Assembly: GCA_963680875.1 (NCBI GenBank)
Contig: OY804589.1
Span: 24,602,353 to 24,666,352, forward strand
Length of the DNA: 64,000 nt
Direction of reading: 5' to 3'
DNA from: Bathymodiolus brooksi
Taxonomy: Eukaryota; Mollusca; Bivalvia; Mytilida; Modiolidae
Part shown: positions 8,853 to 64,000 of the stretch, in pieces
How the letters are laid out: each line of letters opens with the position of its first letter
Position numbering within the stretch: the first letter of the stretch is position 1
Notes under the pieces: generated by a model
What the model was told of the DNA's origin: nothing
Databases searched by the model: none
What the model saw: only the letters and a program-made list of their open reading frames with translations
Made by a program: the position numbers and the translations under genes

Positions 8853-8857
8853 AAATT

Positions 8858-9980: not shown

Positions 9981-10021
9981 GAAGATTTAACAATTATTCA
10001 TATATAGTGGAAGTTCAGTTA

Positions 10022-10307: not shown

Positions 10308-13300
10308 TTACCAGAATGTAGATTCGTGCGTTATGTCGTCTGCAAGGATAACCATGTGACCCATCGATGGCCCTAAATCAACGGTTATATTTGTATATAG
10401 TAGTTCATCATGTTTACTTATAACTGAATAATTCATTGTATTGGGAGTATTCAGTCCATCATTTAGCCATCGCCCTCGCCAGCCAAGAAAGGATCCGTAA
10501 CTGTAAAAAATATATATAAGAAATTCAGAAAAACATTAATAAGTATTGGATTATGAAAATAAAGTTTAAACAGTGATGGTTGCAGTGGCATAGCTAGAGT
10601 GTGTGCTGCCCAGGACAAAAAAAATACAACATATTGACAGTGACTCCCTCTTATATTATAAGTTATCTACGTTCCTATCCGTAGATATGGAGATTTTAAC
10701 ACCCTGAAGTACCCAAGTACATCCTGAAGGGTATACAGGCTACTGAAGGGTGTTAAAATCTCCATATCTATGGATAGGAATGCAGATAACAAACTTATCC
10801 CCGGTTATAGTCAAAAATAAGACATTTTGAACCCCGGCGGTCCACGTAAAAGTGACGTTTTCTTTGTTTTTGGAAAGAATAAGTAAAAGATATGAAAATT
10901 TCGAGTGCTTTTTACCCGGTGTAGTACAGTTGATCAAACTAACAGCTTTAGATTCAATATATAGCCAAAATTAAATAAATTTGATTCTGGAGTGCAACGT
11001 CGCAAGCTTTAACGTCATATCCCCATTTTGAAAATTATAATAACATTTGATTGGTTAAATGGCTAGTTACACCCGGTAATATGGCCTAGCAACACCTGGG
11101 AATGTGGGTTTTTTATACCCGGGATTTTAACCAATCAAAAGTTGTTATAATTTTCAAACCAGGAATAAATATATATATAACAACAGTTGCCATCAAGTTA
11201 GCAGTCATAATGTACCAAATACTGTATACCGAAAACCATGTTAAATATTATTTATAAAATTAATGACTTCTTTATTATGCATTTGTGAATAGTGTCCTGA
11301 CGTTAAAACCACATTTATTTCAATACAGCCTATGCACACTTATCCAGCAGACACAAAAGTGCAACCCCCATAAAAGTGATGGCCGGGACGAACCCTCCTC
11401 CTCCCCTACTAGCTATGCAACTGGATGGTTGTCTATTCCACAAATATCAACAACACGAACAACATCCTCTAACCTCAAACCATTGAATACCAAAAAAGAC
11501 CACAATAGATGGCTTTGGAAATCGGCTAAATTTGATCTTTGTAACTATGGAAAAAGGGAAATAACTCTTGCAAAAAAAGAAAACATTCTGACTGAAGGTT
11601 AAAGCAACATACAATTTCATTTTTTGAGAACCATGGCAACAATCATACATTTACACATACAGTCAATGCAAGTCATCATTAAAGTTGCAAGTTTGAGATG
11701 TAACATTTTCATCGTATATGTGGTTTCTGACTCTGAGAAGAAAAGATTTGAAATTTCAGATAATCAGAAAGCTTGATGACCTTAGCAGACATTTTGAACT
11801 TCTAAATGGAACAAAATTCATATATAACGTTGAAGACCTATAAGTAACATTTCTGTCAAGTTTGGTGACATTTGGTTCAGTTGTTTGTGAGGAAATAACA
11901 AAATGTGAAAAGCTTACAGACGACAGACCATGACGGATGAAAAGTGATGAAAATACCTCACTTGGTGCATTGGTCAAGAGGGGCTAAGAACAAAAAGCAA
12001 CATTTCAGTACAAAGAAATCTTAGGTTTTTAATGGGGTTAGTGTATGTCCATCTTTAGATTTCTGTGTAATGCTTTGTAGATAGCTGTTTGTCCTTTGAC
12101 CTTTTTCTTTTAGCCATTGCATTGTCCGTCCTTCTTTGATTTACGGATTCTGATTACCATTTGGTATCTTCAAACTCTTCTTGTAGGATTAGTGATATAA
12201 GCTCAGCACATGATTTCTGTATGATGAAAGCAAAATATTTCTCAACGGAGGGGTCGAAAATATTATATCATACTCAACATGTAACATACTGTATTAAAAT
12301 GAAGGGTTTATCTAGAATTATTTTATATGAAAATGGGATTAAATACCTACGATCACAATCTTAGATATGTTTGTATTACAAGAGTTTCTATGACAACATA
12401 AAATAAACTATGAAATATACCCATGTTCAGCTCTGGTTTCTTTTTTATGTCTAACCATTTTAAATCTCCCAATATACTCTGGAGGTCTTGTTAAAAATAT
12501 ACCGGATGATTGCAATCTGAAATTATGAAACCAGATTCAAGCAAAAATAACAAGGATTAGTGTGACTAAAGTTCAAATAATGAAATAAAAAAAAAATCCA
12601 ATCTTGAATAATGTTAGTGACATAACACAAATTATGACAAGTTTATTCCTCTACTTGTAATATTTAAGTAAACCGTAGCATACACATTTGCGATGTTCCA
12701 GTTTGGCATGGTCAAACTCATGATTTTATCATTGACAGGATCATTTATTGAGTTTAATTGTTCAAGGTATCGGTGTTCGAGTGAAAGGGTTTTTCTTACT
12801 TTGAAAATTGACACTTTCAAACTAAAGGCTCCCAGTAGCCTGTAATCGCTCACCTGGCTCAAAGTTGGCCCCAAAAAAGAAAAGCCAAAATTATTGCTAA
12901 GTATATGGAAGATTCTGTAGTCAAATCCGTTGAGATACTACTGAAAGATAATTTAAAAAGGAATCTAAAGAAAAAACAGACAAAAAATAAACGTTCTATA
13001 CCCCAAAGTTAGAGGAGATAATTTTTAAGTGATTTTTTGCCAAATTTTCTATTTTTAATAACGGTGGCCATCTTGGTTAGTGGCCGGGGTTGTCGGACAC
13101 AATTCTCAAAGAGGACCATCTGAAGAACATTCCATCATAGTTTGGGCCCAATTGGCCCAGCAGTTTCAGAGAAGATAATTTGTAAGTGATTTTTTGCCGA
13201 ATTTTCTATTTTTAGTAATGGCAGCCATCTTGGTTGGCGGGGGACATTGTCAGAAACAATTCTGAAAGGGGACCACCCAAGGACCATTCCGCCAAAGTTT

Positions 13301-16300
13301 GGTTCAAATTGGCCCAGTGGTTTTAGAGGAGTTGATTAAAATGTAAAAAGCTAACGACAGACGGACGCCGGACGCCCAGTGGTAGCAATAGCTCACCTGA
13401 CCCTTTGGGTCACGTGAGCTAATTAGTTTGAGTCATCCATGGTGTTCAACCTAGCAAAGTTTGACTGTACATTTTGTATATATATAGCTCACTGAAACAA
13501 CAGTCCGCGGGTAGACATGTTGCTCCACTCTAACACATTATCCTGAATCTAAGTTAACCAGTCATTGCTCTTACTCCTTAATGCTACGTGCTTAGCGGAG
13601 AAGCAACAAATGTTCTAGTCTTTGGTTTGACCAAACAGCAGCTCGAATACACATGGTACTGCACTTGAGGCAAGCATGCAAACAATTACACCATCGATGC
13701 AGTTGAATAACCAAAGAATATGACAGAGTGTACTCTGTATAATGTTATTTGTCTTTCCTATGCTTTACGTTAAGGGGGAAACGATTCACCGTATGTACCG
13801 AAATCGTGATTATTTTGGGGACGGTTCGGTTCACGATACGTGGAGGACGCTTACGATACAAACGATATGATGCTCATTTTTTGAAAAAAAGTAGTGTTGA
13901 ACTTCCGTTTTCTTCTTTTGGTGATCATTTAATTAATATTTTGAGAAAAGTGAATCGATTAATTTACGCTTTTAAAATTAATTAATCAAATATTTATAAT
14001 TTCCGCTAGTACGTAAGCGACCTCATATTAAAAAAAAACATGGTAGCGCCCATGTCGACCAGCATGGACTGCAAGTAATAGTTACAGTTTCCTATAAAAC
14101 GTATCATAATACATATCAAATATCACGATACGTATCGCTTGTGGAAAAAGTGTATCGTTACACCCTTACTTTACACAAGTGCTAAAGACTGATTTAAACT
14201 TGAATGAGTTATTATTAGTACCACTCTGTATTATACATGTACTACACTGGTCCATATGCTATACGAAAGATATATGGGGTCAAACACTGGGAGAAGTGCA
14301 TGATTACAAAATCTTATCCAGGAGTGTGTTAGATTTTACAATCTTGCACCTTTCAGTGTTCGGACTCTTTTTTTCCCCATCCCTTTCTAACATGTCAATG
14401 TTTGTTTACTTTTTGCAGATATATTTTTTAATTACCTCCCTTTGACCAAATTCTATAGTAGTTTTGGAAAATTTTAAATGTGGGTCAAATAAATTTTTAT
14501 AGGTATTAATCGCTGTTATAGTACTAGCATTTATGGATATGGTGTATATATTTGATCATGAAATACATCTAAAATACCATCAAATCTACTTCAGAAATGG
14601 TAAGAAAAAATTGTGGGAAAACACTCGTGTAGCTCGTCTTACCCAGGAGCCTGTGTAAGATAGAAAAATCTTTTCCACATAAATCAACAGACTACTTTAT
14701 GCATGGGGTGAGAAAAATATATACACAGTAAATACAAACGTACCTGGCAGAAAAATCATCGTCTTCATTACCCCATCCCCAGTATGAGTTGGCATAGCCA
14801 TTTATCTTCATGAAAGTTTCCTTCTTTGTAGCTACCACTCCTCCAGCATAATTATAATACATTACACTGTGAAAACAAACAAATAGAGTTGCCTACTTAC
14901 ATGAAAGGACTTAAAAATAAACAATATTCCATCAAACTTCTTCACTTAGAGTGAGTGAGTGTTTGTTGTTTAACGCTAACTCAGCAATTTTTCAGCAATA
15001 TCATGACGAGAACAAGTTAATTTTCAATGAGATGATGATGAGGTCCACTTTGTACTGCACCAACACAGGTAGACATGTCACCCCACTCAGACACATTAGC
15101 AGAGAAGCAACAAATACCAATTTTATAGTTTTTTGTTCTTCACTTTGAATGCAACAATTAAATTGATTCCTTTTCATTATTAATGCTTCATCTCCATTTC
15201 TCATAGGGAAAGTTTTGTGTATTGTTGCAGGTGACCAAACATCTGCTGATATTTCACAGCAGAATTAAATTCTTGCCATGAGTAACACATGAATTTATCA
15301 ATTGTATGCTCAATAGAATTTCCTGACATGTTCACATGGCAACAAATGGAGAAATAAAATTTTTTGGTGAAATTTTAATGAAGTCTCCTTAACTACAGTA
15401 TGCAGCATCTTGTGAGTGAGTGATTGTTGTTTAATGCCAACTCAGCAATTTTTCATCTATATCAAGTTAATTTTTAATGAGATGATGACCCCTAACCCCT
15501 AACCCTTATATTGTTTTTTGTCTAATTTTTCTTCCACTTACTGGTATCTCATTTCATCAATAGCAGACGACAGCTGTCTGACATTATTATCACAGAAGTA
15601 GAGATTTTTATCATTTTCTGGCAGAAGATCAGCATCGTGGAACACAAAACAATCAAAGTTGTCATATTTCAAAGCTTCAGTAAATCCAACATTCATTAGT
15701 TTTCCTCTGTTAAATTGGTCGTTTCCAGACTGCAGAAAAAAAATATATAAATAAAAGTGAAATTACCATAATTTTTATTTTTATTTTGGGGGAGTCATGG
15801 TTATGGTGATTAATGTCACTTTCGACAATATTTCAGTTATTATAAAATCAATGCAGTCAGTTGGTGGAGGAAACCTGAGTACCCGGAGAAACCCACCGAC
15901 ATTCCGTATGTCACTGACAAACTTTATCACATATAATGTTGTATCGAGTACATCACACCATGAATGGGGTTCGAACTCACAACTTTAGAGGTGATAGGTT
16001 CTGATTACACAGGTAGTTATAAATCCATCTACCATACGATAAAGACCATGACACCCCCTTTTTTTAATTTTCATATTTAATATATTTAATTGAGGAGGAA
16101 ATATTAATGCAATTTTACTAAAATATGTCAAACTTTCTTTTTATCACTACTGTTAGCGTAATATATTACCTTAAATTTTTGTTGTGATTCGTAAAACCTG
16201 TTGCAATTACAACATAATAAATATGTCTTAAAAATAAGCATGATTTTTGTACAATGTACTGTGTTGTAGAAGACTTTTTATTAAAGATTGTAAGAAACAG

Positions 16301-42486: not shown

Positions 42487-43391
42487 AGTACCAAATATCA
42501 CTACAGAAACTTCCACGAAGTATAATATTGAGTAATAACCATGTTCAACCTACTAGTAAACAAAAATTAATGACAATGTTTGAGTTGACAGAGAATGATA
42601 TTAAACAAATTTATAAACTTCCTTTCAAAACTACAAACAAATTGTAAATTTTAGTGGTTACAATATAGAATTAACTCAGATTGATTACAAACACCTTTAT
42701 GTATAAGATCAAAATAAAACAAGATCCACGGTGTAGTTTTTGCAAAAAAGAAAAAGAAAATATGATACATTTGTTGTGTGAATGTGAAAATGTCCAGATT
42801 CTACTGGAAATATTAGATAATTGGACACTTAAAAATGGTAATTTTACTTTAAACTATAACAAAAAGACATTCATTTTGGGTTATCACAAGGAAAAAAACT
42901 CATTGATAAGCAACAAAATTTTACCAGCAATTAAATACTATATATACACATGTAGATGTCTTTCAAAAATCCTTGCTTTAACAGCCCTTATATATACTCC
43001 AAGAGCTTTATAGTACAGAACGAATAATGACCATTAAACAAGAAAACCTGGAAGTTTTCAACAATTCATGGAACTGTTGGAGTAATTTATTACAAAATAG
43101 GGACCATTCATAGTGCTTTATGTTCTTTTCTTCTTATTTATTATTGAAAAAACATATGTAGCACTTCAAAAAGTATTATTGCACAATTATAACTCTCTAT
43201 AAGATATATAAAATATTCTATTTAATTTATTCCTTCCCGAATGAAACTAATGCCTGTTCCGACCCACGTTTTTTGTTTTCCCCCTCAATTTGATTAGTTT
43301 TCTTAAGAGAGACATATTGTTTTAGTCTGATTTTTTCTTCTGCTTCCACTTCTGCTTCTTCTCAGGGAAGCTTGTCTGGACCATAACTTTT

Positions 43392-43799
43392 TAGTTCACC
43401 TGGACCAAAGGTCCAGGTGAACTATTGCCATCACTTGGCGTCCGTCGTCTGTCGTCTGTAAACTTTTCACATTTCAAGCTTCTTCTCCGAAACCACTGGG
43501 TCGATTGGAACCAAACTTAGCAGGAATGTTCCTTGGATGGTCCTCTACAAAGTTACTGTTTTTCGTTCCAGTCGGATATTCAATATGGCTGCCAAGGCCA
43601 ATAATATGCTCTGATTGGCTGAAATTTCAAAGATCTTCTTCTCTGAAACTAATGAACTGACTGAACCTAAACTGTACATGAATGATCATTGGAATGTCCT
43701 TTACCAAGTTACTGTTTTTTATGCCGATCGGAAATCCAAGATGGCCGCCATCGCAGGACATAGATTAACATTGGACCCTATGGGAAAATGTTCAAATGC
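43392..43799 (+). mobile_element. Hairpin terminus and first two diverged repeats of the satellite's source element
   Basis: Starts with a perfect 15-bp-arm hairpin 43392-43424 (TAGTTCACCTGGACC, AAA, inverse), then TTGGCGTCCGTCGTCTGTCG and internal repeats starting CTTCTTCTC at 43479 and 43635 (156 and 165 bp). These repeats differ from one another and from the array, as expected for the old edge of an expanded array. Hairpin, GGCGTCCG and repeat motifs match the minus-strand element at 13011-13421. Confidence 0.8.
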
Positions 43800-46700
43800 C
43801 TTCTTCTCAGAAACTACAAATATGATTAAAGCCAAACTGTACATGAATGTTCATTGGATGGTCCTCTACAATCTTAAGGTTTTTTGTTCCGATATGAAAT
43901 TCAAAATGGCGGCTACGGCAGGACTTAGTTTAACATTGGACCCTATGGGGAAAATGTTTCAAAATGCTTCTTCTCTGAAACCACTTGGACAGTTGAAACC
44001 AAACTGCCCAGGAATGATCATTTGAAGGTCCTCTACAAAGTTTCTGTTTTTTATGCCGATCGGAAATCCAAGATGGCCACCACCGCAATACATAGATTAA
44101 CATTGGACCCTATGGGAAAATATTCAAATGCCTTCTTCTCAGAAACTACAAATATGATTAAAGCCAAACTGTACATGAATGTTCATTGGATGGTCCTCTA
44201 CAATCTTAAGGTTTTTTGTTCCGATATGAAATTCAAAATGGCGGCTACGGCAGGACTTAGTTTAACATTGGACCCTATGGGAAAAATGTTTCAAAATGCT
44301 TCTTCTCTGAAACCACTTGGACAGTTGAAACCAAACTGCCCAGGAATGATCATTGGAAGGTCCTCTACAAAGTTTCTGTTTTTTATGCCGATCGGAAATC
44401 CAAGATGGCCGCCACCGCAGGACATAGATTAACATTGGACTCTATGGGAAAATATTCAAATGCCTTCTTCTCAGAAACTACAGATATGATTAAAGCCAAA
44501 CTGTACATGAATGTTCATTAGATGGCCCTCTACAAACTTTAGGTTTTTTGTTCCGGTATGAAATTCAAAATGGCGGCTACGGCAGGACTTAGTTTAACAT
44601 TGGACCCTATGGGAAAAATGTTTCAAAATGCTTCTTCTCTGAAACCACTTGGACAGTTGAAACCAAACTGCCCAGGAATGATCATTGGAAGGTCCTCTAC
44701 AAAGTTTCTGTTTTTTATGCCGATCGGAAATCCAAGATGGCCGCCACCGCAGGACATAGATTAACATTGGACCCTATGGGAAAATATTCAAATGCCTTCT
44801 TCTCAGAAACTACAAATATGATTAAAGCCAAACTGTACATGAATGTTCATTGGATGGTCCTCTACAATCTTAAGGTTTTTTGTTCCGATATGAAATTCAA
44901 AATGGCGGCTACGGCAGGACTTAGTTTAACATTGGACCCTATGGGAAAAATGTTTCAAAATGCTTCTTCTCTGAAACCACTTGGACAGTTGAAACCAAAC
45001 TGCCCAGGAATGATCATTGGAAGGTCCTCTACAAAGTTTCTGTTTTTTATGCCGATCGGAAATCCAAGATGGCCACCACCGCAATACATAGATTAACATT
45101 GGACTCTATGGGAAAATATTCAAATGCCTTCTTCTCAGAAACTACAAATATGATTAAAGCCAAACTGTACATGAATGTTTATTGGATGGTCCTCTACAAT
45201 CTTAAGGTTTTTTGTTCCGATATGAAATTCAAAATGGCGGCTACGGCAGGACTTAGTTTAACATTGGACCCTATGGGAAAAATGTTTCAAAATGCTTCTT
45301 CTCTGAAACCACTTGGACAGTTGAAACCAAACTGCCCAGGAATGATCATTGGAAGGTCCTCTACAAAGTTTCTGTTTTTTATGCCGATCGGAAATCCAAG
45401 ATGGCTGCCACCGCAGGACATAGATTAACATTGGACCCTATGGGAAAATATTCAAATGCCTTCTTCTCAGAAATTACAAATATGATTAAAGCCAAACTGT
45501 ACATGAATGTTCATTGGATGGTCCTCTACAATCTTAAGGTTTTTTGTTCCGATATGAAATTCAAAATGGCGGCTACGGCAGGACTTAGTTTAACATTGGA
45601 CCCTATGGGGAAAATGTTTCAAAATGCTTCTTCTCTGAAACCACTTGGACAGTTGAAACCAAACTGCCCAGGAATGATCATTTGAAGGTCCTCTACAAAG
45701 TTTCTGTTTTTTATGCCGATCGGAAATCCAAGATGGCCACCACCGCAATACATAGATTAACATTGGACCCTATGGGAAAATATTCAAATGCCTTCTTCTC
45801 AGAAACTACAAATATGATTAAAGCCAAACTGTACATGAATGTTCATTGGATGGTCCTCTACAATCTTAAGGTTTTTTGTTCCGATATGAAATTCAAAATG
45901 GCGGCTACGGCAGGACTTAGTTTAACATTGGACCCTATGGGGAAAATGTTTCAAAATGCTTCTTCTCTGAAACCACTTGGACAGTTGAAACCAAACTGCC
46001 CAGGAATGATCATTTGAAGGTCCTCTACAAAGTTTCTGTTTTTTATGCCGATCGGAAATCCAAGATGGCCACCACCGCAATACATAGATTAACATTGGAC
46101 CCTATGGGAAAATATTCAAATGCCTTCTTCTCAGAAACTACAAATATGATTAAAGCCAAACTGTACATGAATGTTCATTGGATGGTCCTCTACAATCTTA
46201 AGGTTTTTTGTTCCGATATGAAATTCAAAATGGCGGCTACGGCAGGACTTAGTTTAACATTGGACCCTATGGGAAAAATGTTTCAAAATGCTTCTTCTCT
46301 GAAACCACTTGGACAGTTGAAACCAAACTGCCCAGGAATGATCATTGGAAGGTCCTCTACAAAGTTTCTGTTTTTTATGCCGATCGGAAATCCAAGATGG
46401 CCGCCACCGCAGGACATAGATTAACATTGGACCCTATGGGAAAATATTCAAATGCCTTCTTCTCAGAAACTACAGATATGATTAAAGCCAAACTGTACAT
46501 GAATGTTCATTAGATGGCCCTCTACAAACTTTAGGTTTTTTGTTCCGGTATGAAATTCAAAATGGCGGCTACGGCAGGACTTAGTTTAACATTGGACCCT
46601 ATGGGAAAAATGTTTCAAAATGCTTCTTCTCTGAAACCACTTGGACAGTTGAAACCAAACTGCCCAGGAATGATCATTGGAAGGTCCTCTACAAAGTTTC

Positions 46701-49700
46701 TGTTTTTTATGCCGATCGGAAATCCAAGATGGCTGCCACCGCAGGACATAGATTAACATTGGACCCTATGGGAAAATATTCAAATGCCTTCTTCTCAGAA
46801 ATTACAAATATGATTAAAGCCAAACTGTACATGAATGTTCATTGGATGGTCCTCTACAATCTTAAGGTTTTTTGTTCCGATATGAAATTCAAAATGGCGG
46901 CTACGGCAGGACTTAGTTTAACATTGGACCCTATGGGGAAAATGTTTCAAAATGCTTCTTCTCTGAAACCACTTGGACAGTTGAAACCAAACTGCCCAGG
47001 AATGATCATTTGAAGGTCCTCTACAAAGTTTCTGTTTTTTATGCCGATCGGAAATCCAAGATGGCCACCACCGCAATACATAGATTAACATTGGACCCTA
47101 TGGGAAAATATTCAAATGCCTTCTTCTCAGAAACTACAAATATGATTAAAGCCAAACTGTACATGAATGTTCATTGGATGGTCCTCTACAATCTTAAGGT
47201 TTTTTGTTCCGATATGAAATTCAAAATGGCGGCTACGGCAGGACTTAGTTTAACATTGGACCCTATGGGAAAAATGTTTCAAAATGCTTCTTCTCTGAAA
47301 CCACTTGGACAGTTGAAACCAAACTGCCCAGGAATGATCATTTGAAGGTCCTCTACAAAGTTTCTGTTTTTTATGCCGATCGGAAATCCAAGATGGCCAC
47401 CACCGCAATACATAGATTAACATTGGACCCTATGGGAAAATATTCAAATGCCTTCTTCTCAGAAACTACAAATATGATTAAAGCCAAACTGTACATGAAT
47501 GTTCATTGGATGGTCCTCTACAATCTTAAGGTTTTTTGTTCCGATATGAAATTCAAAATGGCGGCTACGGCAGGACTTAGTTTAACATTGGACCCTATGG
47601 GGAAAATGTTTCAAAATGCTTCTTCTCTGAAACCACTTGGACAGTTGAAACCAAACTGCCCAGGAATGATCATTTGAAGGTCCTCTACAAAGTTTCTGTT
47701 TTTTATGCCGATCGGAAATCCAAGATGGCCACCACCGCAATACATAGATTAACATTGGACCCTATGGGAAAATATTCAAATGCCTTCTTCTCAGAAACTA
47801 CAAATATGATTAAAGCCAAACTGTACATGAATGTTCATTGGATGGTCCTCTACAATCTTAAGGTTCTTTGTTCCGATATGAAATTCAAAATGGCGGCTAC
47901 GGCAGGACTTAGTTTAACATTGGACCCTATGGGAAAAATGTTTCAAAATGCTTCTTCTCTGAAACCACTTGGACAGTTGAAACCAAACTGCCCAGGAATG
48001 ATCATTGGAAGGTCCTCTACAAAGTTTCTGTTTTTTATGCCGATCGGAAATCCAAGATGGCCGCCACCGCAGGACATAGATTAACATTGGACCCTATGGG
48101 AAAATATTCAAATGCCTTCTTCTCAGAAACTACAGATATGATTAAAGCCAAACTGTACATGAATGTTCATTAGATGGCCCTCTACAAACTTTAGGTTTTT
48201 TGTTCCGGTATGAAATTCAAAATGGCGGCTACGGCAGGACTTAGTTTAACATTGGACCCTATGGGAAAAATGTTTCAAAATGCTTCTTCTCTGAAACCAC
48301 TTGGACAGTTGAAACCAAACTGCCCAGGAATGATCATTGGAAGGTCCTCTACAAAGTTTCTGTTTTTTATGCCGATCGGAAATCCAAGATGGCTGCCACC
48401 GCAGGACATAGATTAACATTGGACCCTATGGGAAAATATTCAAATGCCTTCTTCTCAGAAACTACAAATATGATTAAAGCCAAACTGTACATGAATGTTC
48501 ATTGGATGGTCCTCTACAATCTTAAGGTTTTTTGTTCCGATATGAAATTCAAAATGGCGGCTACGGCAGGACTTAGTTTAACATTGGACCCTATGGGAAA
48601 AATGTTTCAAAATGCTTCTTCTCTGAAACCACTTGGACAGTTGAAACCAAACTGCCCAGGAATGATCATTGGAAGGTCCTCTACAAAGTTTCTGTTTTTT
48701 ATGCCGATCGGAAATCCAAGATGGCCACCACCGCAGTACATAGATTAACATTGGACTCTATGGGAAAATATTCAAATGCCTTCTTCTCAGAAACTACAAA
48801 TATGATTAAAGCCAAACTGTACATGAATGTTCATTGGATGGTCCTCTACAATCTTAAGGTTTTTTGTTCCGATATGAAATTCAAAATGGCGGCTACGGCA
48901 GGACTTAGTTTAACATTGGACCCTATGGGAAAAATGTTTCAAAATGCTTCTTCTCTGAAACCACTTGGACAGTTGAAACCAAACTGCCCAGGAATGATCA
49001 TTGGAAGGTCCTCTACAAAGTTTCTGTTTTTTATGCCGATCGGAAATCCAAGATGGCTGCCACCGCAGGACATAGATTAACATTGGACCCTATGGGAAAA
49101 TATTCAAATGCCTTCTTCTCAGAAATTACAAATATGATTAAAGCCAAACTGTACATGAATGTTCATTGGATGGTCCTCTACAATCTTAAGGTTTTTTGTT
49201 CCGATATGAAATTCAAAATGGCGGCTACGGCAGGACTTAGTTTAACATTGGACCCTATGGGGAAAATGTTTCAAAATGCTTCTTCTCTGAAACCACTTGG
49301 ACAGTTGAAACCAAACTGCCCAGGAATGATCATTTGAAGGTCCTCTACAAAGTTTCTGTTTTTTATGCCGATCGGAAATCCAAGATGGCCACCACCGCAA
49401 TACATAGATTAACATTGGACCCTATGGGAAAATATTCAAATGCCTTCTTCTCAGAAACTACAAATATGATTAAAGCCAAACTGTACATGAATGTTCATTG
49501 GATGGTCCTCTACAATCTTAAGGTTTTTTGTTCCGATATGAAATTCAAAATGGCGGCTACGGCAGGACTTAGTTTAACATTGGACCCTATGGGAAAAATG
49601 TTTCAAAATGCTTCTTCTCTGAAACCACTTGGACAGTTGAAACCAAACTGCCCAGGAATGATCATTGGAAGGTCCTCTACAAAGTTTCTGTTTTTTATGC

Positions 49701-52700
49701 CGATCGGAAATCCAAGATGGCCGCCACCGCAGGACATAGATTAACATTGGACCCTATGGGAAAATATTCAAATGCCTTCTTCTCAGAAACTACAGATATG
49801 ATTAAAGCCAAACTGTACATGAATGTTCATTAGATGGCCCTCTACAAACTTTAGGTTTTTTGTTCCGGTATGAAATTCAAAATGGCGGCTACGGCAGGAC
49901 TTAGTTTAACATTGGACCCTATGGGAAAAATGTTTCAAAATGCTTCTTCTCTGAAACCACTTGGACAGTTGAAACCAAACTGCCCAGGAATGATCATTGG
50001 AAGGTCCTCTACAAAGTCTCTGTTTTTTATGCCGATCGGAAATCCAAGATGGCCGCCACCGCAGGACATAGATTAACATTGGACCCTATGGGAAAATATT
50101 CAAATGCCTTCTTCTCAGAAACTACAAATATGATTAAAGCCAAACTGTACATGAATGTTCATTGGATGGTCCTCTACAATCTTAAGGTTTTTTGTTCCGA
50201 TATGAAATTCAAAATGGCGGCTACGGCAGGACTTAGTTTAACATTGGACCCTATGGGAAAAATGTTTCAAAATGCTTCTTCTCTGAAACCACTTGGACAG
50301 TTGAAACCAAACTGCCCAGGAATGATCATTGGAAGGTCCTCTACAAAGTTTCTGTTTTTTATGCCGATCGGAAATCCAAGATGGCCGCCACCGCAGTACA
50401 TAGATTAACATTGGACTCTATGGGAAAATATTCAAATGCCTTCTTCTCAGAAACTACAAATATGATTAAAGCCAAACTGTACATGAATGTTCATTGGATG
50501 GTCCTCTACAATCTTAAGGTTTTTTGTTCCGATATGAAATTCAAAATGGCGGCTACGGCAAGACTTAGTTTAACATTGGACCCTATGGGAAAAATGTTTC
50601 AAAATGCTTCTTCTCTGAAACCACTTGGACAGTTGAAACCAAACTGCCCAGGAATGATCATTTGAAGGTCCTCTACAAAGTTTCTGTTTTTTATGCCGAT
50701 CGGAAATCCAAGATGGCCACCACCGCAATACATAGATTAACATTGGACCCTATGGGAAAATATTCAAATGCCTTCTTCTCAGAAACTACAAATATGATTA
50801 AAGCCAAACTGTACATGAATGTTCATTGGATGGTCCTCTACAATCTTAAGGTTTTTTGTTCCGATATGAAATTCAAAATGGCGGCTACGGCAGGACTTAG
50901 TTTAACATTGGACCCTATGGGAAAAATGTTTCAAAATGCTTCTTCTCTGAAACCACTTGGACAGTTGAAACCAAACTGCCCAGGAATGATCATTGGAAGG
51001 TCCTCTACAAAGTTTCTGTTTTTTATGCCGATCGGAAATCCAAGATGGCCGCCACCGCAGGACATAGATTAACATTGGACCCTATGGGAAAATATTCAAA
51101 TGCCTTCTTCTCAGAAACTACAAATATGATTAAAGCCAAACTGTACATGAATGTTCATTAGATGGCCCTCTACAAACTTTAGGTTTTTTGTTCCGGTATG
51201 AAATTCAAAATGGCGGCTACGGCAGGACTTAGTTTAACATTGGACCCTATGGGGAAAATGTTTCAAAATGCTTCTTCTCTGAAACCACTTGGACAGTTGA
51301 AACCAAACTGCCCAGGAATGATCATTGGAAGGTCCTCTACAAAGTTTCTGTTTTTTATGCCGATCGGAAATCCAAGATGGCCGCCACCGCAGGACATAGA
51401 TTAACATTGGACCCTATGGGAAAATATTCAAATGCCTTCTTCTCAGAAACTACAAATATGATTAAAGCCAAACTGTACATGAATGTTCATTGGATGGTCC
51501 TCTACAATCTTAAGGTTTTTTGTTCCGATATGAAATTCAAAATGGCGGCTACGGCAGGACTTAGTTTAACATTGGACCCTATGGGAAAAATGTTTCAAAA
51601 TGCTTCTTCTCTGAAACCACTTGGACAGTTGAAACCAAACTGCCCAGGAATTATCATTGGAAGGTCCTCTACAAAATTTATGTTTTTTATGCCGATCGGA
51701 AATCCAAGATGGCCGCCACCGCAGTACATAGATTAACATTGGACTCTATGGGAAAATATTCAAATGCCTTCTTCTCAGAAACTACAAATATGATTAAAGC
51801 CAAACTGTACATGAATGTTCATTGGATGGTCCTCTACAATCTTAAGGTTTTTTGTTCCGATATGAAATTCAAAATGGCGGCTACGGCAGGACTTAGTTTA
51901 ACATTGGACCCTATGGGAAAAATGTTTCAAAATGCTTCTTCTCTGAAACCACTTGGACAGTTGAAACCAAACTGCCCAGGAATGATCATTGGAAGGTCCT
52001 CTACAAAGTTTCTGTTTTTTATGCCAATCGGAAATCCAAGATGGCCGCCACCGCAGGCCATAGATTAACATTGGACCCTATGGGAAAATATTCAAATGCC
52101 TTCTTCTCAGAAACTACAAATATGATTAAAGCTAAACTGTACATGAATGTTCATTGGATGGTCCTCTACAATCTTAAGGTTTTTTGTTCCGATATGAAAT
52201 TCAAAATGGCGGCTACGGCAGGACTTAGTTTAACATTGGACCCTATGGGAAAAATGTTTCAAAATGCTTCTTCTCTGAAACCACTTGGACAGTTGAAACC
52301 AAACTGCCCAGGAATGATCATTTGAAGGTCCTCTACAAAGTTTCTGTTTTTTATGCCGATCGGAAATCCAAGATGGCCACCACCGCAGGACATAGATTAA
52401 CATTGGACCCTATGGGAAAATATTCAAATGCCTTCTTCTCAGAAACTACAAATATGATTAAAGCCAAACTGTACATGAATGTTCATTAGATGGCCCTCTA
52501 CAAACTTTAGGTTTTTTGTTCCGGTATGAAATTCAAAATGGCGGCTACGGCAGGACTTAGTTTAACATTGGACCCTATGGGAAAAATGTTTCAAAATGCT
52601 TCTTCTCTGAAACCACTTGGACAGTTGAAACCAAACTGCCCAGGAATGATCATTGGAAGGTCCTCTACAAAGTTTCTGTTTTTTATGCCGATCGGAAATC

Positions 52701-55700
52701 CAAGATGGCCACCACCGCAGGCCATAGATTAACATTGGACCCTATGGAAAAATATTCAAATGCCTTCTTCTCAGAAACTACATATATGATTAAAGCCAAA
52801 CTGTACATGAATGTTCATTGGATGGTCCTCTACAATCTTAAGGTTTTTTGTTCCGATATGAAATTCAAAATGGCGGCTACGGCAGGACTTAGTTTAACAT
52901 TGGACCCTATGGGAAAAATGTTTCAAAATGCTTCTTCTCTGAAACCACTTGGACAGTTGAAACCAAACTGCCCAGGAATGATCATTGGAAGGTCCTCTAC
53001 AAAGTTTCTGTTTTTTATGCCGATCGGAAATCCAAGATGGCCACCACCGCAGGCCATAGATTAACATTGGACCCTATGGAAAAATATTCAAATGCCTTCT
53101 TCTCAGAAACTACATATATGATTAAAGCTAAACTGTACATGAATGTTCATTGGATGGTCCTCTACAATCTTAAGGTTTTTTGTTCCGATATGAAATTCAA
53201 AATGGCGGCTACGGTAGGACTTAGTTTAACATTGGACCCTATGGGAAAAATGTTTCAAAATGCTTCTTCTCTGAAACCACTTGGACAGTTGAAACCAAAC
53301 TGCCCAGGAATGATCATTGGAAGGTCCTCTACAAAGTTTCTGTTTTTTATGCCGATCGGAAATCCAAGATGGCCACCACCGCAGGACATAGATTAACATT
53401 GGACCCTATGGGAAAATATTCAAATGCCTTCTTCTCAGAAACTACAAATATGATTAAAGCCAAACTGTACATGAATGTTCATTGGATGGTCCTCTACAAT
53501 CTTAAGGTTTTTTGTTCCGATATGAAATTCAAAATGGCGGCTACGGCAGGACTTAGTTTAACATTGGACCCTATGGGAAAAATGTTTCAAAATGCTTCTT
53601 CTCTGAAACCACTTGGACAGTTGAAACCAAACTGCCCAGGAATGATCATTGGAAGGTCCTCTACAAAGTTTCTGTTTTTTATGCCGATCGGAAATCCAAG
53701 ATGGCTGCCACCGCAGGACATAGATTAACATTGGACCCTATGGGAAAATATTCAAATGCCTTCTTCTCAGAAACTACAAATATGATTAAAGCCAAACTGT
53801 ACATGAATGTTCATTGGATGGTCCTCTACAATCTTAAGGTTTTTTGTTCCGATATGAAATTCAAAATGGCGGCTACGGCAGGACTTAGTTTAACATTGGA
53901 CCCTATGGGAAAAATGTTTCAAAATGCTTCTTCTCTGAAACCACTTGGACAGTTGAAACCAAACTGCCCAGGAATGATCATTGGAAGGTCCTCTACAAAA
54001 TTTATGTTTTTTATGCCGATCGGAAATCCAAGATGGCCGCCACCGCAGGCCATAGATTAACATTGGACCCTATGGGAAAATATTCAAATGCCTTCTTCTC
54101 AGAAACTACAAATATGATTAAAGCCAAACTGTACATGAATGTTCATTGGATGGTCCTCTACAATCTTAAGGTTTTTTGTTCCGATATGAAATTCAAAATG
54201 GCGGCTACGGCAGGACTTAGTTTAACATTGGACCCTATGGGAAAAATGTTTCAAAATGCTTCTTCTCTGAAACCACTTGGACAGTTGAAACCAAACTGCC
54301 CAGGAATGATCATTGGAAGGTCCTCTACAAAGTTTCTGTTATTTATGCCGATCGGAAATCCAAGATGGCCACCACCGCAGGCCATAGATTAACATTGGAC
54401 CCTATGGAAAAATATTCAAATGCCTTCTTCTCAGAAACTACATATATGATTAAAGCTAAACTGTACATGAATGTTCATTGGATGGTCCTCTACAATCTTA
54501 AGGTTTTTTGTTCCGATATGAAATTCAAAATGGCGGCTACGGCAGGACTTAGTTTAACATTGGACCCTATGGGAAAAATGTTTCAAAATGCTTCTTCTCT
54601 GAAACCACTTGGACAGTTGAAACCAAACTGCCCAGGAATGATCATTGGAAGGTCCTCTACAAAGTTTCTGTTTTTTATGCCGATCGGAAATCCAAGATGG
54701 CCACCACCGCAATACATAGATTAACATTGGACCCTATGGGAAAATATTCAAATGCCTTCTTCTCAGAAACTACAAATATGATTAAAGCAAAACTGTACAT
54801 GAATGTTCATTGAATAGTCCTCTACAAACTTTACGTTTTTTATTCCGATATGAAATTCAAAATGGCGGCTACGGCAGGACTTAGTTTAACATTGGACCCT
54901 ATGGGAATAATGTTTCAAAATGCTTCTTCTCTGAAACCACTTGGACAGTTGAAACCAAACTGCCCAGGAATGATCATTGGAAGGTCCTCTACAAAGTGTC
55001 TGTTTTTTATGCCGATCGGAAATCCAAGATGGCCGCCACCGCAGGACATAGATTAACATTGAACCCTATGGGAAAATATTCAAATGCCTTCTTCTCAGAA
55101 ACTACAAATATGATTAAAGCCAAACTGTACATGAATGTTCATTGGATGGTCCTCTACAATCTTAAGGTTTTTTGTTCCGATATGAAATTCAAAATGGCGG
55201 CTACGGCAGGACTTAGTTTAACATTGGACCCTATGGGAAAAATGTTTCAAAATGCTTCTTCTCTGAAACCACTTGGACAGTTGAAACCAAACTGCCCAGG
55301 AATGATCATTGGAAGGTCCTCTACAAAGTTTCTGTTTTTTATGCCGATCGGAAATCCAAGATGGCCGCCACCTCAGTACATAGATTAACATTGGACTCTA
55401 TGGGAAAATATTCAAATGCCTTCTTCTCAGAAACTACAAATATGATTAAAGCCAAACTGTACATGAATGTTCATTGGATGGTCCTCTACAATCTTAAGGT
55501 TTTTTGTTCCGATATGAAATTCAAAATGGCGGCTACGGCAGGACTTAGTTTAACATTGGACCCTATGGGAAAAATGTTTCAAAATGCTTCTTCTCTGAAA
55601 CCACTTGGACAGTTGAAACCAAACTGCCCAGGAATGATCATTTGAAGGTCCTCTACAAAGTTTCTGTTTTTTATGCCGATCGGAAATCCAAGATGGCCAC

Positions 55701-58700
55701 CACCGCAATACATAGATTAACATTGGACCCTATGGGAAAATATTCAAATGCCTTCTTCTCAGAAACTACAAATATGATTAAAGCCAAACTGTACATGAAT
55801 GTTCATTGGATGGTCCTCTACAATCTTAAGGTTTTTTGTTCCGATATGAAATTCAAAATGGCGGCTACGGCAGGACTTAGTTTAACATTGGACCCTATGG
55901 GAAAAATGTTTCAAAATGCTTCTTCTCTGAAACCACTTGGACAGTTGAAACCAAACTGCCCAGGAATGATCATTGGAAGGTCCTCTACAAAGTTTCTGTT
56001 TTTTATGCCGATCGGAAATCCAAGATGGCCGCCACCGCAGGACATAGATTAACATTGGACCCTATGGGAAAATATTCAAATGCCTTCTTCTCAGAAACTA
56101 CAAATATGATTAAAGCCAAACTGTACATGAATGTTCATTAGATGGCCCTCTACAAACTTAAGGTTTTTTGTTCCGGTATGAAATTCAAAATGGCGGCTAC
56201 GGCAGGACTTAGTTTAACATTGGACCCTATGGGGAAAATGTTTCAAAATGCTTCTTCTCTGAAACCACTTGGACAGTTGAAACCAAACTGCCCAGGAATG
56301 ATCATTGGAAGGTCCTCTACAAAGTTTCTGTTTTTTATGCCGATCGGAAATCCAAGATGGCCGCCACCGCAGGACATAGATTAACATTGGACCCTATGGG
56401 AAAATATTCAAATGCCTTCTTCTCAGAAACTACAGATATGATTAAAGCCAAACTGTACATGAATGTTCATTGGATGGTCCTCTACAATCTTAAGGTTTTT
56501 TGTTCCGATATGAAATTCAAAATGGCGGCTACGGCAGGACTTAGTTTAACATTGGACCCTATGGGAAAAATGTTTCAAAATGCTTCTTCTCTGAAACCAC
56601 TTGGACAGTTGAAACCAAACTGCCCAGGAATGATCATTGGAAGGTCCTCTACAAAGTTTATGTTTTTTATGCCGATCGGAAATCCAAGATGGCCGCCACC
56701 GCAGTACATAGATTAACATTGGACTCTATGGGAAAATATTCAAATGCCTTCTTCTCAGAAACTACAAATATGATTAAAGCCAAACTGTACATGAATGTTC
56801 ATTGGATGGTCCTCTACAATCTTAAGGTTTTTTGTTCCGATATGAAATTCAAAATGGCGGCTACGGCAGGACTTAGTTTAACATTGGACCCTATGGGAAA
56901 AATGTTTCAAAATGCTTCTTCTCTGAAACCACTTGGACAGTTGAAACCAAACTGCCCAGGAATGATCATTGGAAGGTCCTCTACAAAGTTTCTGTTTTTT
57001 ATGCCAATCGGAAATCCAAGATGGCCACCACCGCAGGCCATAGATTAAAATTGGACCCTATGGGAAAATATTCAAATGCCTTCTTCTCAGAAACTACAAA
57101 TATGATTAAAGCTAAACTGTACATGAATGTTCATTGGATGGTCCTCTACAATCTTAAGGTTTTTTGTTCCGATATGAAATTCAAAATGGCAGCTACGGCA
57201 GGACTTAGTTTAACATTGGACCCTATGGGAAAAATGTTTCAAAATGCTTCTTCTCTGAAACCACTTGGACAGTTGAAATCAAACTGCCCAGGAATGATCA
57301 CTGGAAGGTCCTCTACAAAGTTTCTGTTTTTTATGCCGATTGGAAATCCAAGATGGCTGCCACCGCAGGACATAGATTAACATTGAACCCTATGGGAAAA
57401 TATTCAAATGCCTTCTTCTCAGAAACTACAAATATGATTAAAGCCAAACTGTACATGAATGTTCATTGGATGGTCCTCTACAATCTTAAGGTTTTTTGTT
57501 CCGATATGAAATTCAAAATGGCGGCTACGGCAGGACTTAGTTTAACATTGGACCCTATGGGAAAAATGTTTCAAAATGCTTCTTCTCTGAAACCACTTGG
57601 ACAGTTGAAACCAAACTGCCCAGGAATGATCATTGGAAGGTCCTCTACAAAGTTTCTGTTTTTTATGCCGATCGGAAATCCAAGATGGCCACCACCGCAG
57701 GACATAGATTAACATTGGACCCTATGGGAAAATATTCAAATGCCTTCTTCTCAGAAACTACAAATATGATTAAAGCCAAACTGTACATGAATGTTCATTA
57801 GATGGCCCTCTACAAACTTTAGGTTTTTTGTTCCGGTATGAAATTCAAAATGGCGGCTACGGCAGGACTTAGTTTAACATTGGACCCTATGGGAAAAATG
57901 TTTCAAAATGCTTCTTCTCTGAAACCACTTGGACAGTTGAAACCAAACTGCCCAGGAATGATCATTGGAAGGTCCTCTACAAAGTTTCTGTTTTTTATGC
58001 CGATCGGAAATCCAAGATGGCCACCACCGCAGGCCATAGATTAACATTGGACCCTATGGAAAAATATTCAAATGCCTTCTTCTCAGAAACTACATATATG
58101 ATTAAAGCCAAACTGTACATGAATGTTCATTGGATGGTCCTCTACAATCTTAAGGTTTTTTGTTCCGATATGAAATTCAAAATGGCGGCTACGGCAGGAC
58201 TTAGTTTAACATTGGACCCTATGGGAAAAATGTTTCAAAATGCTTCTTCTCTGAAACCACTTGGACAGTTGAAACCAAACTGCCCAGGAATGATCATTGG
58301 AAGGTCCTCTACAAAGTTTCTGTTTTTTATGCCGATCGGAAATCCAAGATGACTGCCACCGCAGGACATAGATTAACATTGGACCCTATGGGAAAATATT
58401 CAAATGCCTTCTTCTCAGAAACTACAAATATGATTAAAGCCAAACTGTACATGAATGTTCATTGGATGGTCCTCTACAATCTTAAGGTTTTTTGTTCTGA
58501 TATGAAATTCAAAATGGCGGCTACGGCAGGACTTAGTTTAACATTGGACCCTATGGGAAAAATGTTTCAAAATGCTTCTTCTCTGAAACCACTTGGACAG
58601 TTGAAACCAAACTGCCCAGGAATGATCATTGGAAGGTCCTCTACAAAGTTTCTGTTTTTTATGCCGATCAGAAATCCAAGATGGCCACCACCGCAGGCCA

Positions 58701-61700
58701 TAGATTAACATTGGACCCTATGGAAAAATATTCAAATGCCTTCTTCTCAGAAACTACATATATGATTAAAGCTAAACTGTACATGAATGTTCATTGGATG
58801 GTCCTCTACAATCTTAAGGTTTTTTGTTCCGATATGAAATTCAAAATGGCGGCTACGGCAGGACTTAGTTTAACATTGGACCCTATGGGAAAAATGTTTC
58901 AAAATGCTTCTTCTCTGAAACCACTTGGACAGTTGAAACCAAACTGCCCAGGAATGATCATTGGAAGGTCCTCTACAAAGTTTCTGTTTTTTATGCCGAT
59001 CGGAAATCCAAGATGGCCGCCACCGCAGGACATAGATTAACATTGGACCCTATGGGAAAATATTCAAATGCCTTCTTCTCAGAAACTACAAATATGATTA
59101 AAGCCAAACTGTACATGAATGTTCATTGGATGGTCCTCTACAATCTTAAGGTTTTTTGTTCCGATATGAAATTCAAAATGGCGGCTACGGCAGGACTTAG
59201 TTTAACATTGGACCCTATGGGAAAAATGTTTCAAAATGCTTCTTCTCTGAAACCACTTGGACAGTTGAAACCAAACTGCCCAGGAATGATCATTGGAAGG
59301 TCCTCTACAAAGTTTCTGTTTTTTATGCCGATCGGAAATCCAAGATGGCCGCCACCGCAGGCCATAGATTAACATTGGACCCTATGGGAAAATATTCAAA
59401 TGCCTTCTTCTCAGAAACTACAAATATGATTAAAGCCAAACTGTACATGAATGTTCATTGGATGGTCCTCTACAATCTTAAGGTTTTTTGTTCCGATATG
59501 AAATTCAAAATGGCGGCTACGGCAGGACTTAGTTTAACATTGGACCCTATGGGAAAAATGCTTCTTCTCTGAAACCACTTGGACAGTTGAAACCAAACTG
59601 CCCAGGAATGATCATTGGAAGGTCCTCTACAAAGTTTCTGTTTTTTATGCCGATCGGAAATCCAAGATGGCTGCCACCGCAGGACATAGATTAACATTGG
59701 ACCCTATGGGAAAATATTCAAATGCCTTCTTCTCAGAAATTACAAATATGATTAAAGCCAAACTGTACATGAATGTTCATTGGATGGTCCTCTACAATCT
59801 TAAGGTTTTTTGTTCCGATATGAAATTCAAAATGGCGGCTACGGCAGGACTTAGTTTAACATTGGACCCTATGGGAAAAATGTTTCAAAATGCTTCTTCT
59901 CTGAAACCATTTGGACAGTTGAAACCAAACTGCCCAGGAATGATCATTGGAAGGTCCTCTACAAAGTTTCTGTTTTTTTATGCCGATCGAAAATTCAAGA
60001 TGGCCGCCACCGCAGGACATAGATTAACATTGGACCCTATGGGAAAATGTTCAAATGCCTTCTTCTCAGAAACTACAAATATGATTAAAGCAAAACTGTA
60101 CATGAATGTTCATTGAATGGTCCTCTACAAACTTTACGTTTTTTATTCCGATATGAAATTCAAAATGGCGGCTACGGCAGGACTTAGTTTAACATTGGAC
60201 CCTATGGGAAAAATGTTTCAAAACGCTTCTTCTCTGAAACCACTTGGATAATTGAAACCAAACTGACCAGGAATGATCATTGGAAGGTCCTCTACAAAGT
60301 TTCTGTTTTTTATGCCGATTGGAAATCCAAGATGGCCGCCACCGCAAGCCATAGATTAACATTGGACCCTATGGGAAAATATTCAAATGCCTTCTTCTCA
60401 GAAACTACAAATATGATTAAAGCCAAACTGTACATGAATGTTCATTGGATGGTCCTCTACAATCTTAAGGTTTTTTGTTCCGATATGAAATTCAAAATGG
60501 CGGCTACGGCAGGACTTAGTTTAACATTGGACCCTATGGGAAAAATGTTTCAAAATGCTTCTTCTCTGAAACCACTTGGACAGTTGAAACCAAACTGCCC
60601 AGGAATGATCATTGGAAGGTCCTCTACAAAGTTTCTGTTTTTTATGCCGATCGGAAATCCAAGATGGCTGCCACCGCAGGACATAGATTAACATTGGACC
60701 CTATGGGGAAATATTCAAATGCCTTCTTCTCAGAAACTACAAATATGATTAAAGCCAAACTGTACATGAATGTTCATTGGATGGTCCTCTACAATATTAA
60801 GGTTTTTTGTTCCGATATGAAATTCAAAATGGCGGCTACGGCAGGACTTAGTTTAACATTGGACCCTATGGGAATAATGTTTCAAAATGCTTCTTCTCTG
60901 AAACCACTTGGACAGTTGAAACCAAACTGCCCAGGAATGATCATTGGAAGGTCCTCTACAAAGTTTCTGTTTTTTATGCCGATCGGAAATCCAAGATGGC
61001 TGCCACCGCAGGACATAGATTAACATTGGACCCTATGGGGAAATATTCAAATGCCTTCTTCTCAGAAACTACAAATATGATTAAAGCCAAACTGTACATG
61101 AATGTTCATTGGATGGTCCTCTACAATCTTAAGGTTTTTTGTTCCGATATGAAATTCAAAATGGCGGCTACGGCAGGACTTAGTTTAACATTGGACCCTA
61201 TGGGAAAAATGTTTCAAAATGCTTCTTCTCTGAAACCACTTGGACAGTTGAAACCAAACTGCCCAGGAATGATCATTGGAAGGTCCTCTACAAAGTTTCT
61301 GTTTTTTATGCCGATCGGAAATCCAAGATGACTGCCACCGCAGGACATAGATTAACATTGGACCCTATGGGAAAATATTCAAATGCCTTCTTCTCAGAAA
61401 CTACAAATATGATTAAAGCCAAACTGTACATGAATGTTCATTGGATGGTCCTCTACAATCTTAAGGTTTTTTGTTCTGATATGAAATTCAAAATGGCGGC
61501 TACGGCAGGACTTAGTTTAACATTGGACCCTATGGGAAAAATGTTTCAAAATGCTTCTTCTCTGAAACCACTTGGACAGTTGAAACCAAACTGCCCAGGA
61601 ATGATCATTGGAAGGTCCTCTACAAAGTTTCTGTTTTTTATGCCGATCAGAAATCCAAGATGGCCACCACCGCAGGCCATAGATTAACATTGGACCCTAT

Positions 61701-64000
61701 GGAAAAATATTCAAATGCCTTCTTCTCAGAAACTACATATATGATTAAAGCTAAACTGTACATGAATGTTCATTGGATGGTCCTCTACAATCTTAAGGTT
61801 TTTTGTTCCGATATGAAATTCAAAATGGCGGCTACGGCAGGACTTAGTTTAACATTGGACCCTATGGGAAAAATGTTTCAAAATGCTTCTTCTCTGAAAC
61901 CACTTGGACAGTTGAAACCAAACTGCCCAGGAATGATCATTGGAAGGTCCTCTACAAAGTTTCTGTTTTTTATGCCGATCGGAAATCCAAGATGGCCGCC
62001 ACCGCAGGACATAGATTAACATTGGACCCTATGGGAAAATATTCAAATGCCTTCTTCTCAGAAACTACAAATATGATTAAAGCCAAACTGTACATGAATG
62101 TTCATTGGATGGTCCTCTACAATCTTAAGGTTTTTTGTTCCGATATGAAATTCAAAATGGCGGCTACGGCAGGACTTAGTTTAACATTGGACCCTATGGG
62201 AAAAATGTTTCAAAATGCTTCTTCTCTGAAACCACTTGGACAGTTGAAACCAAACTGCCCAGGAATGATCATTGGAAGGTCCTCTACAAAGTTTCTGTTT
62301 TTTATGCCGATCGGAAATCCAAGATGGCCGCCACCGCAGGCCATAGATTAACATTGGACCCTATGGGAAAATATTCAAATGCCTTCTTCTCAGAAACTAC
62401 AAATATGATTAAAGCCAAACTGTACATGAATGTTCATTGGATGGTCCTCTACAATCTTAAGGTTTTTTGTTCCGATATGAAATTCAAAATGGCGGCTACG
62501 GCAGGACTTAGTTTAACATTGGACCCTATGGGAAAAATGCTTCTTCTCTGAAACCACTTGGACAGTTGAAACCAAACTGCCCAGGAATGATCATTGGAAG
62601 GTCCTCTACAAAGTTTCTGTTTTTTATGCCGATCGGAAATCCAAGATGGCTGCCACCGCAGGACATAGATTAACATTGGACCCTATGGGAAAATATTCAA
62701 ATGCCTTCTTCTCAGAAATTACAAATATGATTAAAGCCAAACTGTACATGAATGTTCATTGGATGGTCCTCTACAATCTTAAGGTTTTTTGTTCCGATAT
62801 GAAATTCAAAATGGCGGCTACGGCAGGACTTAGTTTAACATTGGACCCTATGGGAAAAATGTTTCAAAATGCTTCTTCTCTGAAACCATTTGGACAGTTG
62901 AAACCAAACTGCCCAGGAATGATCATTGGAAGGTCCTCTACAAAGTTTCTGTTTTTTTATGCCGATCGAAAATTCAAGATGGCCGCCACCGCAGGACATA
63001 GATTAACATTGGACCCTATGGGAAAATGTTCAAATGCCTTCTTCTCAGAAACTACAAATATGATTAAAGCAAAACTGTACATGAATGTTCATTGAATGGT
63101 CCTCTACAAACTTTACGTTTTTTATTCCGATATGAAATTCAAAATGGCGGCTACGGCAGGACTTAGTTTAACATTGGACCCTATGGGAAAAATGTTTCAA
63201 AACGCTTCTTCTCTGAAACCACTTGGATAATTGAAACCAAACTGACCAGGAATGATCATTGGAAGGTCCTCTACAAAGTTTCTGTTTTTTATGCCGATTG
63301 GAAATCCAAGATGGCCGCCACCGCAAGCCATAGATTAACATTGGACCCTATGGGAAAATATTCAAATGCCTTCTTCTCAGAAACTACAAATATGATTAAA
63401 GCCAAACTGTACATGAATGTTCATTGGATGGTCCTCTACAATCTTAAGGTTTTTTGTTCCGATATGAAATTCAAAATGGCGGCTACGGCAGGACTTAGTT
63501 TAACATTGGACCCTATGGGAAAAATGTTTCAAAATGCTTCTTCTCTGAAACCACTTGGACAGTTGAAACCAAACTGCCCAGGAATGATCATTGGAAGGTC
63601 CTCTACAAAGTTTCTGTTTTTTATGCCGATCGGAAATCCAAGATGGCTGCCACCGCAGGACATAGATTAACATTGGACCCTATGGGGAAATATTCAAATG
63701 CCTTCTTCTCAGAAACTACAAATATGATTAAAGCCAAACTGTACATGAATGTTCATTGGATGGTCCTCTACAATATTAAGGTTTTTTGTTCCGATATGAA
63801 ATTCAAAATGGCGGCTACGGCAGGACTTAGTTTAACATTGGACCCTATGGGAATAATGTTTCAAAATGCTTCTTCTCTGAAACCACTTGGACAGTTGAAA
63901 CCAAACTGCCCAGGAATGATCATTGGAAGGTCCTCTACAAAGTTTCTGTTTTTTATGCCGATCGGAAATCCAAGATGGCTGCCACCGCAGGACATAGATT
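43800..64000 (+). repeat. 332-bp dimeric satellite, about 61 dimers, running off the window
   Basis: Each dimer is a 167-bp A monomer (CTTCTTCTCAGAAACTACAA ... TTTGTTCCGATATGAAATTC) and a 165-bp B monomer (CTTCTTCTCTGAAACCACTT ... TTTATGCCGATCGGAAATCC). A and B share blocks (CTTCTTCTC, GGTCCTCTACAA, AACATTGGACCCTATGGGAA), roughly three quarters of positions by eye, while dimers are nearly identical to each other. Variant units recur: CATTAGATGGCCCTC with TTCCGGTATG near 44518, 46510, 48170, 49830, 51158, 52486, 56138 and 57798, spaced by 4 to 11 dimers. Because 332 is not a multiple of three and the unit has fixed stops (GACATAGATTAA), the serial 94-149-residue frames are not genes. Confidence 0.98.
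58340..64000 (+). repeat. 2979-bp higher-order duplication within the 332-bp satellite
   Basis: Diagnostic changes at 58349 (AAGATGACTGCC), about 59560 (10-bp deletion before CTTCTTCTCTG), about 59978 (extra T in TTTTTTTATGCC), 60711 (TATGGGGAAATATTC), 60793 (AATATTAAGG) and 60871 (GGAATAATG) all recur exactly 2979 bp later. 2979 equals nine 332-bp dimers minus 10 plus 1. The second copy is cut by the window end. Confidence 0.95.

Follow-up and report, generated by a model that had tools for sequence, protein, structure and literature searches.

The window analyzed here, a stretch of 64,000 nucleotides from the bivalve Bathymodiolus brooksi (contig C18:24,602,353-24,666,352; the assembly comprises 2.0 Gb in 136 contigs), contains more than 20 kb of a tandem array with a dimeric 332-bp unit. 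This array very probably makes up the interior of a single HINE (non-autonomous Helentron) from a high-copy family, whose central repeats form the dimeric satellite. A sequence-only reading had described the array as grown from the core repeats of a hairpin-ended element and had likened its margins to the layered edges of primate alpha satellites. Our data support the view that the repeats are core repeats of such an element, whereas the likeness to alpha-satellite layering did not hold.

Tandem Repeats Finder gave a period of 332 with 97% matches and 61.4 copies at 43,625-64,000, and only 76% matches at a period of 165, which confirms the array as it had been described. The core monomers are 165 and 167 bp long in nearly all cases, in line with the 165-167 bp given in the earlier reading. 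The two monomer types, A and B, are 78% identical and represent diverged paralogues, with the A-B pair as the amplified unit, and their B-A alternation is unbroken in the window copy. At the left edge, the order that had been read from the letters alone (hairpin, GTC-rich segment, two diverged single repeats, dimers) was fully recovered; within a copy, the two single repeats, L1 and L2, are 75% and 84% identical to core A. The right-hand edge, which the earlier reading had suggested looking for in the following sequence, was indeed found there. Carrying the window numbering on past the window end, the array overruns the window by 2.5 kb and is followed by two diverged repeats (R1 and R2) and a terminus, with which the element stops at 66,867. 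The window copy is a single bounded element with 23,475 bp between its ends and 141 repeats, and the sequence between its short ends consists of repeats (Table 1).

The assignment to the HINEs is based on the agreement of the element's parts with the published description, which, in the available portions of two studies (PMC4067079, PMC7492417), comprises subterminal inverted repeats (subTIRs), a 5' inverted repeat, a microsatellite, central repeats, a 3' stem-loop or palindrome, and a TT or T-rich target without duplication. In the window copy, the subTIRs are GTTCACCTGG on the left and CCAGGTGAAC on the right, agreeing in 10/10 bases. The left hairpin constitutes the inverted repeat beside the 5' subTIR; its stem has 14 bp within the element, or 15 counting the flanking T-A pair, and its DNA fold of -16.4 kcal/mol (z -7.5) was equalled by 0/200 shuffles. 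The GTC-rich segment corresponds to the microsatellite behind the left terminus, and the satellite itself to the central tandem repeats. Near the right end, the palindrome AGGCTCTTGAGAGCCT forms a 6-bp stem in the DNA fold (71-base stretch, z -2.6, equalled by 5/200 shuffles). The end sequences of the family are AGTTCACC and CCTCTGG.

The window copy was inserted at TT without target duplication. All copies with a matched left end have TT in front of it (15/15), and at the right end a T comes straight after the GG in 9/10 copies, L015 having one extra G. When the joined flanks of nine copies were compared with the loci of this analysis, empty sites were found for two of the nine pairs, with the T number differing at the junction. 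One of these two copies, E2, is a second family member 11 kb downstream (77,863-86,121, L010/L011; 8,259 bp). E2 sits in a minisatellite with the unit TATATTGGAGTTATCTCCCTTTTT and many paralogous empty sites, and its empty target can therefore be read from the neighbouring units: the flanks rejoin into a normal minisatellite repeat, with a changed T count at the junction and scattered mismatches elsewhere. The other copy, L016 on contig C1, has paralogous empty sites within a family of repeats that is found beside the window copy, too.

Table 1. Features of the window copy, including its continuation past the window end, and of a sister element in the window.
Feature	Position	Strand	Remark
Target T run left of the element (AACTTTTT, then AGTTC)	43388..43392	+	TT before left end, 15/15 copies with matched left end
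Left (5') terminus; subterminal inverted repeat GTTCACCTGG and complement form a hairpin	43393..43423	+	Fold; right end has CCAGGTGAAC
GGCGTCCG / GTC-rich microsatellite-like segment	43437..43459	+	Longer in copy E2
Edge repeat L1, 156 bp, ~75% to core A	43469..43624	+	
Edge repeat L2, 165 bp, ~84% to core A	43625..43789	+	
Core (B-A)n dimers, period 332	43790..64000, on to 66,505 (locus L009)	+	
Right edge repeats R1 and R2	R1 from 66,506, R2 from 66,664	+	
3' terminus CCAGGTGAACGATACAGGCTCTTGAGAGCCTCTGG	ends at 66,867	+	
Eight-dimer block, copy 1	58398..61044	+	Eight dimers repeated exactly
Eight-dimer block, copy 2	61377..64023 (23 bases beyond window)	+	
Third occurrence of five dimers from the eight-dimer block	64,356-66,006	+	
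Sister-family short HINE, both ends, 599 bp, two core repeats	12822..13420	-	Both repeats outside the A/B clade in the tree

The whole genome was searched with a left 51-mer and a right subterminal 28-mer (at most two mismatches) and with a 44-mer of the B unit (at most three). The left pattern matched at 3,430 places, the right pattern at 4,638, and the B-unit pattern at 69,936, whereas the reversed-pattern controls gave 0 for all three. At 332 bp each, the B units amount to ~23 Mb or ~1.2% of the assembly, in which larger arrays may be collapsed or absent. There are 15.1 B units per right end and 20.4 per left end, with both end counts being lower bounds. On C1 (6.4-46.0 Mb), 22 of 27 exact left ends had an exact right end as their partner at a distance of up to 40 kb, and the partners of the unpaired ends may be mutated. 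These pairs span ~1.95-17.0 kb with a median of 4.1 kb, although the longest could skip an end, and the window copy (23.5 kb) exceeds all of them; the average element among them, computed by hand, has ~13 dimers and a mean length of ~5.1 kb. The full 909-bp left edge was present at 98-100% identity in 39 loci besides the window (best 40 of 2,162 candidates scored, a selection biased to the best), and this edge is not specific to the window locus. The end and B-unit counts imply that there are thousands of array-bearing elements, which makes the question of whether the array or the element came first at this locus a false choice. Of the earlier proposal that the array grew from an element, it is the derivation from element core repeats that stands. 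The comparison with centromeric repeats found no support here, the best-matching copies being spread over 14 different contigs.

Sixteen copies were compared, namely the window's, its downstream neighbour E2, and 14 copies in 13 stretches from the top of the left-edge ranking (L017 is the same place as L016 and was not counted). All 16 start with L1 and L2 followed by B-A dimers, the number of which varies. Ten could be followed to a matched right end, where they close with an A-like repeat (A') and R, and five leave the fetched stretch. In the first of the two L020 copies, the left hairpin was not matched by the search pattern. These two copies, 0.8 kb apart at L020:5914-9982, share their right flank, and one of them may therefore belong to a local duplication.

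Between loci, the edge repeats are 98.9% (L1), 98.4% (L2), 98.6% (R1), and 99.0% (R2) identical, the L1 and L2 values being biased upward by the ranking, whereas the core repeats are only 96.3% (A) and 97.1% (B) identical. In alpha-satellite-like layering, edge monomers are expected to be older than the core and to diverge more from locus to locus. As the edges are instead more alike than the core, age layering is contradicted at the window locus. Of 674 monomers, three lay outside 130-185 bp and were left unaligned, and five more were cut by stretch ends and excluded from the class counts. A tree was built of 67 repeats, 44 picked at random from the 666 classed monomers and 23 sister repeats, which came from the window, the following 60 kb, L041, and L044. 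In this tree, core B, R1, and R2 are well supported and L1 (85/93) and L2 (91/85) more weakly; R1 is nested among core A, and the clade uniting A, B, L2, and R (97/95) excludes L1. Edge repeats from different loci cluster by their position in the element. The earlier reading had named such a tree as its check, and none of the 23 sister repeats falls inside the A/B/L2/R clade; five stand beside L1, apart from the other 18. The edge repeats are inherited, fixed parts of the transposon rather than remnants of an old satellite at its margin.

A satellite of the classical type (centromeric or heterochromatic) that had an old element as its seed and shows an edge-to-core age gradient as in primate alpha satellite would also give a long, uniform array of dimers flanked by diverged edge repeats, and the local block duplications described below are of the kind that satellites show. 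However, fixed termini bound the array on both sides, and the right terminus contradicts this explanation at the window locus itself; in addition, the core is less conserved between loci than the edges, and the end matches number thousands. The B units per end, moreover, only moderately exceed the ~13 dimers of the average element, and as the end counts are lower bounds, no large separate block is needed to account for the excess, though one may exist. We consider a classical satellite highly improbable.

With CpG sites masked, the edges differ by 0.9-1.3% between elements, whereas the dimers differ by 2.2-2.6% within one array and by 2.9-3.1% between arrays. Among the common variants, 11 of 14 in A and 9 of 10 in B occur as polymorphisms in no fewer than half of the arrays. 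As the dimers are more varied within an array than the edges are between elements, and as the variants are so widespread, the arrays are probably moved as ready-made arrays. Most simply, the spreading elements would already have contained varied arrays of many dimers. Arrays also grow locally by exact block duplication: in a scan of even lags, exact blocks of at least five monomers were found in 6/16 arrays, with up to 17 monomers at lag 18 in the window copy and 14 at lag 14 in L024. For core monomers, the nearest neighbour belongs to their own array in 56% (A) and 46% (B) of cases, compared to 9-10% expected. Only 3 of 596 junctions between classed core monomers break the B-A register, which is what exchange guided by 97% versus 76% similarity would be expected to give.

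One could also imagine that the elements landed with few dimers and that each array was amplified separately at its own locus after insertion. The excess of nearest neighbours in the same array, the variation of exact block duplications by locus, the widely variable element sizes, and the scarcity of exact dimer types common to different elements all agree with such a course. On the other hand, dimer divergence within an array is about twice the edge divergence between elements, the majority of the common variants are polymorphic in half of the arrays or more, and none of the 16 copies is dimer-free, though most were ranked by a dimer-containing query, so that amplification solely after landing appears unlikely to us. 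Another explanation places the amplification in transposition itself, with rolling-circle replication re-copying or slipping in the array and new insertions being born with an altered dimer number. Members of the group are described as using rolling-circle replication, which a study of the oyster satellitome, in its available portion, discusses as a source of tandem arrays, citing plant Helitrons (PMC8268682). However, no observation made here separates this route from unequal exchange after insertion, and the exact blocks lie near the 5' side in L024 and towards the 3' side in the window copy; we regard it as conceivable but doubtful.

Our preferred interpretation, that existing arrays were carried along with the spreading elements, would involve the Rep-helicase of an autonomous Helentron, which would act on the T-flanked ends, replicate the element as a rolling circle and thereby bring the existing array to the new site. 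Each array may then grow or shrink through unequal exchange in register or through slippage of replication between ~97%-identical dimers. In the window copy, multi-dimer blocks, nine and six dimers apart, appear to have been recently duplicated towards the 3' side, and this copy would be long in part because of these duplications. A bolder idea, which we offer tentatively and with considerable reservation, is that of a rolling-circle transposon as a satellite-making machine that would move ready arrays, some of more than 100 repeats, and alter their length on replication, with the whole family (~1% of the genome) being solely cargo.

Several observations weigh against the preferred interpretation. 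Thirteen of the 16 copies were ranked by their match to the left edge of the window copy, which is the source of the upward bias in the L1 and L2 identities. The unranked copies E2 and L020b serve as a partial control, and while the edges of L020b (98.0-99.1%) agree with the general picture, L1 (97.0%) and L2 (96.5%) of E2 are near the overall core level; its R1 and R2 reach 98.6% and 98.0%, and its own core (A 95.3%, B 95.6%) is lower than all of its edges. In L026, the right end was not matched, and L021 and L027 contain out-of-register or truncated units. Exact dimer types are common to different elements in only 7 of 245 cases, and the position of a dimer shows only slight conservation, at the first and last ones. 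Among the 16 copies, no ordered whole array is common to different loci, the longest common run being two dimers in the neighbours L020 and L020b. As dimers are so rarely shared and positions so little conserved, there is no direct sign of entire arrays having been transferred in order. Finally, the three of 119 Rep loci that were read at length yielded no autonomous element bearing these ends.

The 119 Rep matches in the genome come from a Helitron_like_N search. As Rep-PIF1 helicase frames are present, a source of the enzyme is plausible. The frame after one Rep-helicase frame gave an endonuclease match of 20.2 bits, which is under the Pfam cut-off of 24.5. The Rep loci read were L041 and L042 (10 kb each), together with the flanking sequence of a third (L043, L044), and the longest-frame comparison covered nine loci, without L029, L031, and L035. 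L041 was considered as a partner, as a HINE-like left end lies 1.66 kb before its Rep-helicase frame, but this end equally likely belongs to a neighbouring HINE, because the similarity of the other Rep loci to L041 breaks off where the frame starts. In L042, a left end of the window element's family faces away from the gene. In L041, the end of the Rep-helicase frame and the following stretch are duplicated in tandem (7032-8325 and 8816-10000), and at L044:5764-5840, two sister HINE ends stand head to tail with only TT between them.

Pearl elements of bivalves have core repeats of ~160 bp, a length close to that of the window element's monomers, as the earlier reading had pointed out. The closest relatives by description are from the oyster Crassostrea gigas. 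In the available portions of its description, Cg_HINE has two flanking modules with subterminal inverted repeats, a GTC-type microsatellite in several elements, a 3' palindrome, central repeats of mostly 140-180 bp, a preference for TT without target duplication, and genome-wide dispersal, all as in the family described here (Vojvoda Zeljko et al., 2020; PMC7492417). Its arrays reach at most 29.3 monomers, with a mean of 3.62 across the 13 clusters, whereas the window copy has 141 monomers and, as its unit, a dimer of two diverged monomers. CgiSat01 (Cg170/HindIII) of the same oyster, as far as covered by the available text, is a scattered, Helitron-associated satellite of 164-166 bp with very variable array length, likened here by description and not by sequence; its longest element-associated array has 89 monomers and its longest standalone array 232 (PMC8268682), compared to the dimeric, element-bounded array of 141 in the window copy. 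The DINE-1/HINE elements of Drosophila and mites share subTIRs, the inverted repeat by the 5' subTIR, the microsatellite, central repeats, the 3' stem-loop, and the TT target, but for these elements, autonomous partners have been described (Thomas et al., 2014; PMC4067079), of which none turned up here in the Rep loci read (3/119). The accessible parts of two further publications contain nothing on long element-bound arrays (PMC11136912, PMC12818792). The kind of element is already known from oysters, and the window copy is an unusually long, dimeric member of it.

A tandem array of more than 20 kb that a repeat finder reports as a satellite can thus be the inside of a single transposon copy. 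Thousands of end-bounded copies with very different lengths provide a natural experiment on the growth and shrinkage of satellite arrays. The case also cautions that both ends need to be compared between loci before diverged edge repeats are interpreted as old layers of a satellite.

Two other tandem arrays lie in the window. An AT-rich array with a 50-bp unit at 18035-20306 has 45 copies with 99% matches and shows no HINE end in the short flanks inspected, and an array with an 80-bp unit at 33914-38949 has 63 copies, likewise with 99% matches.

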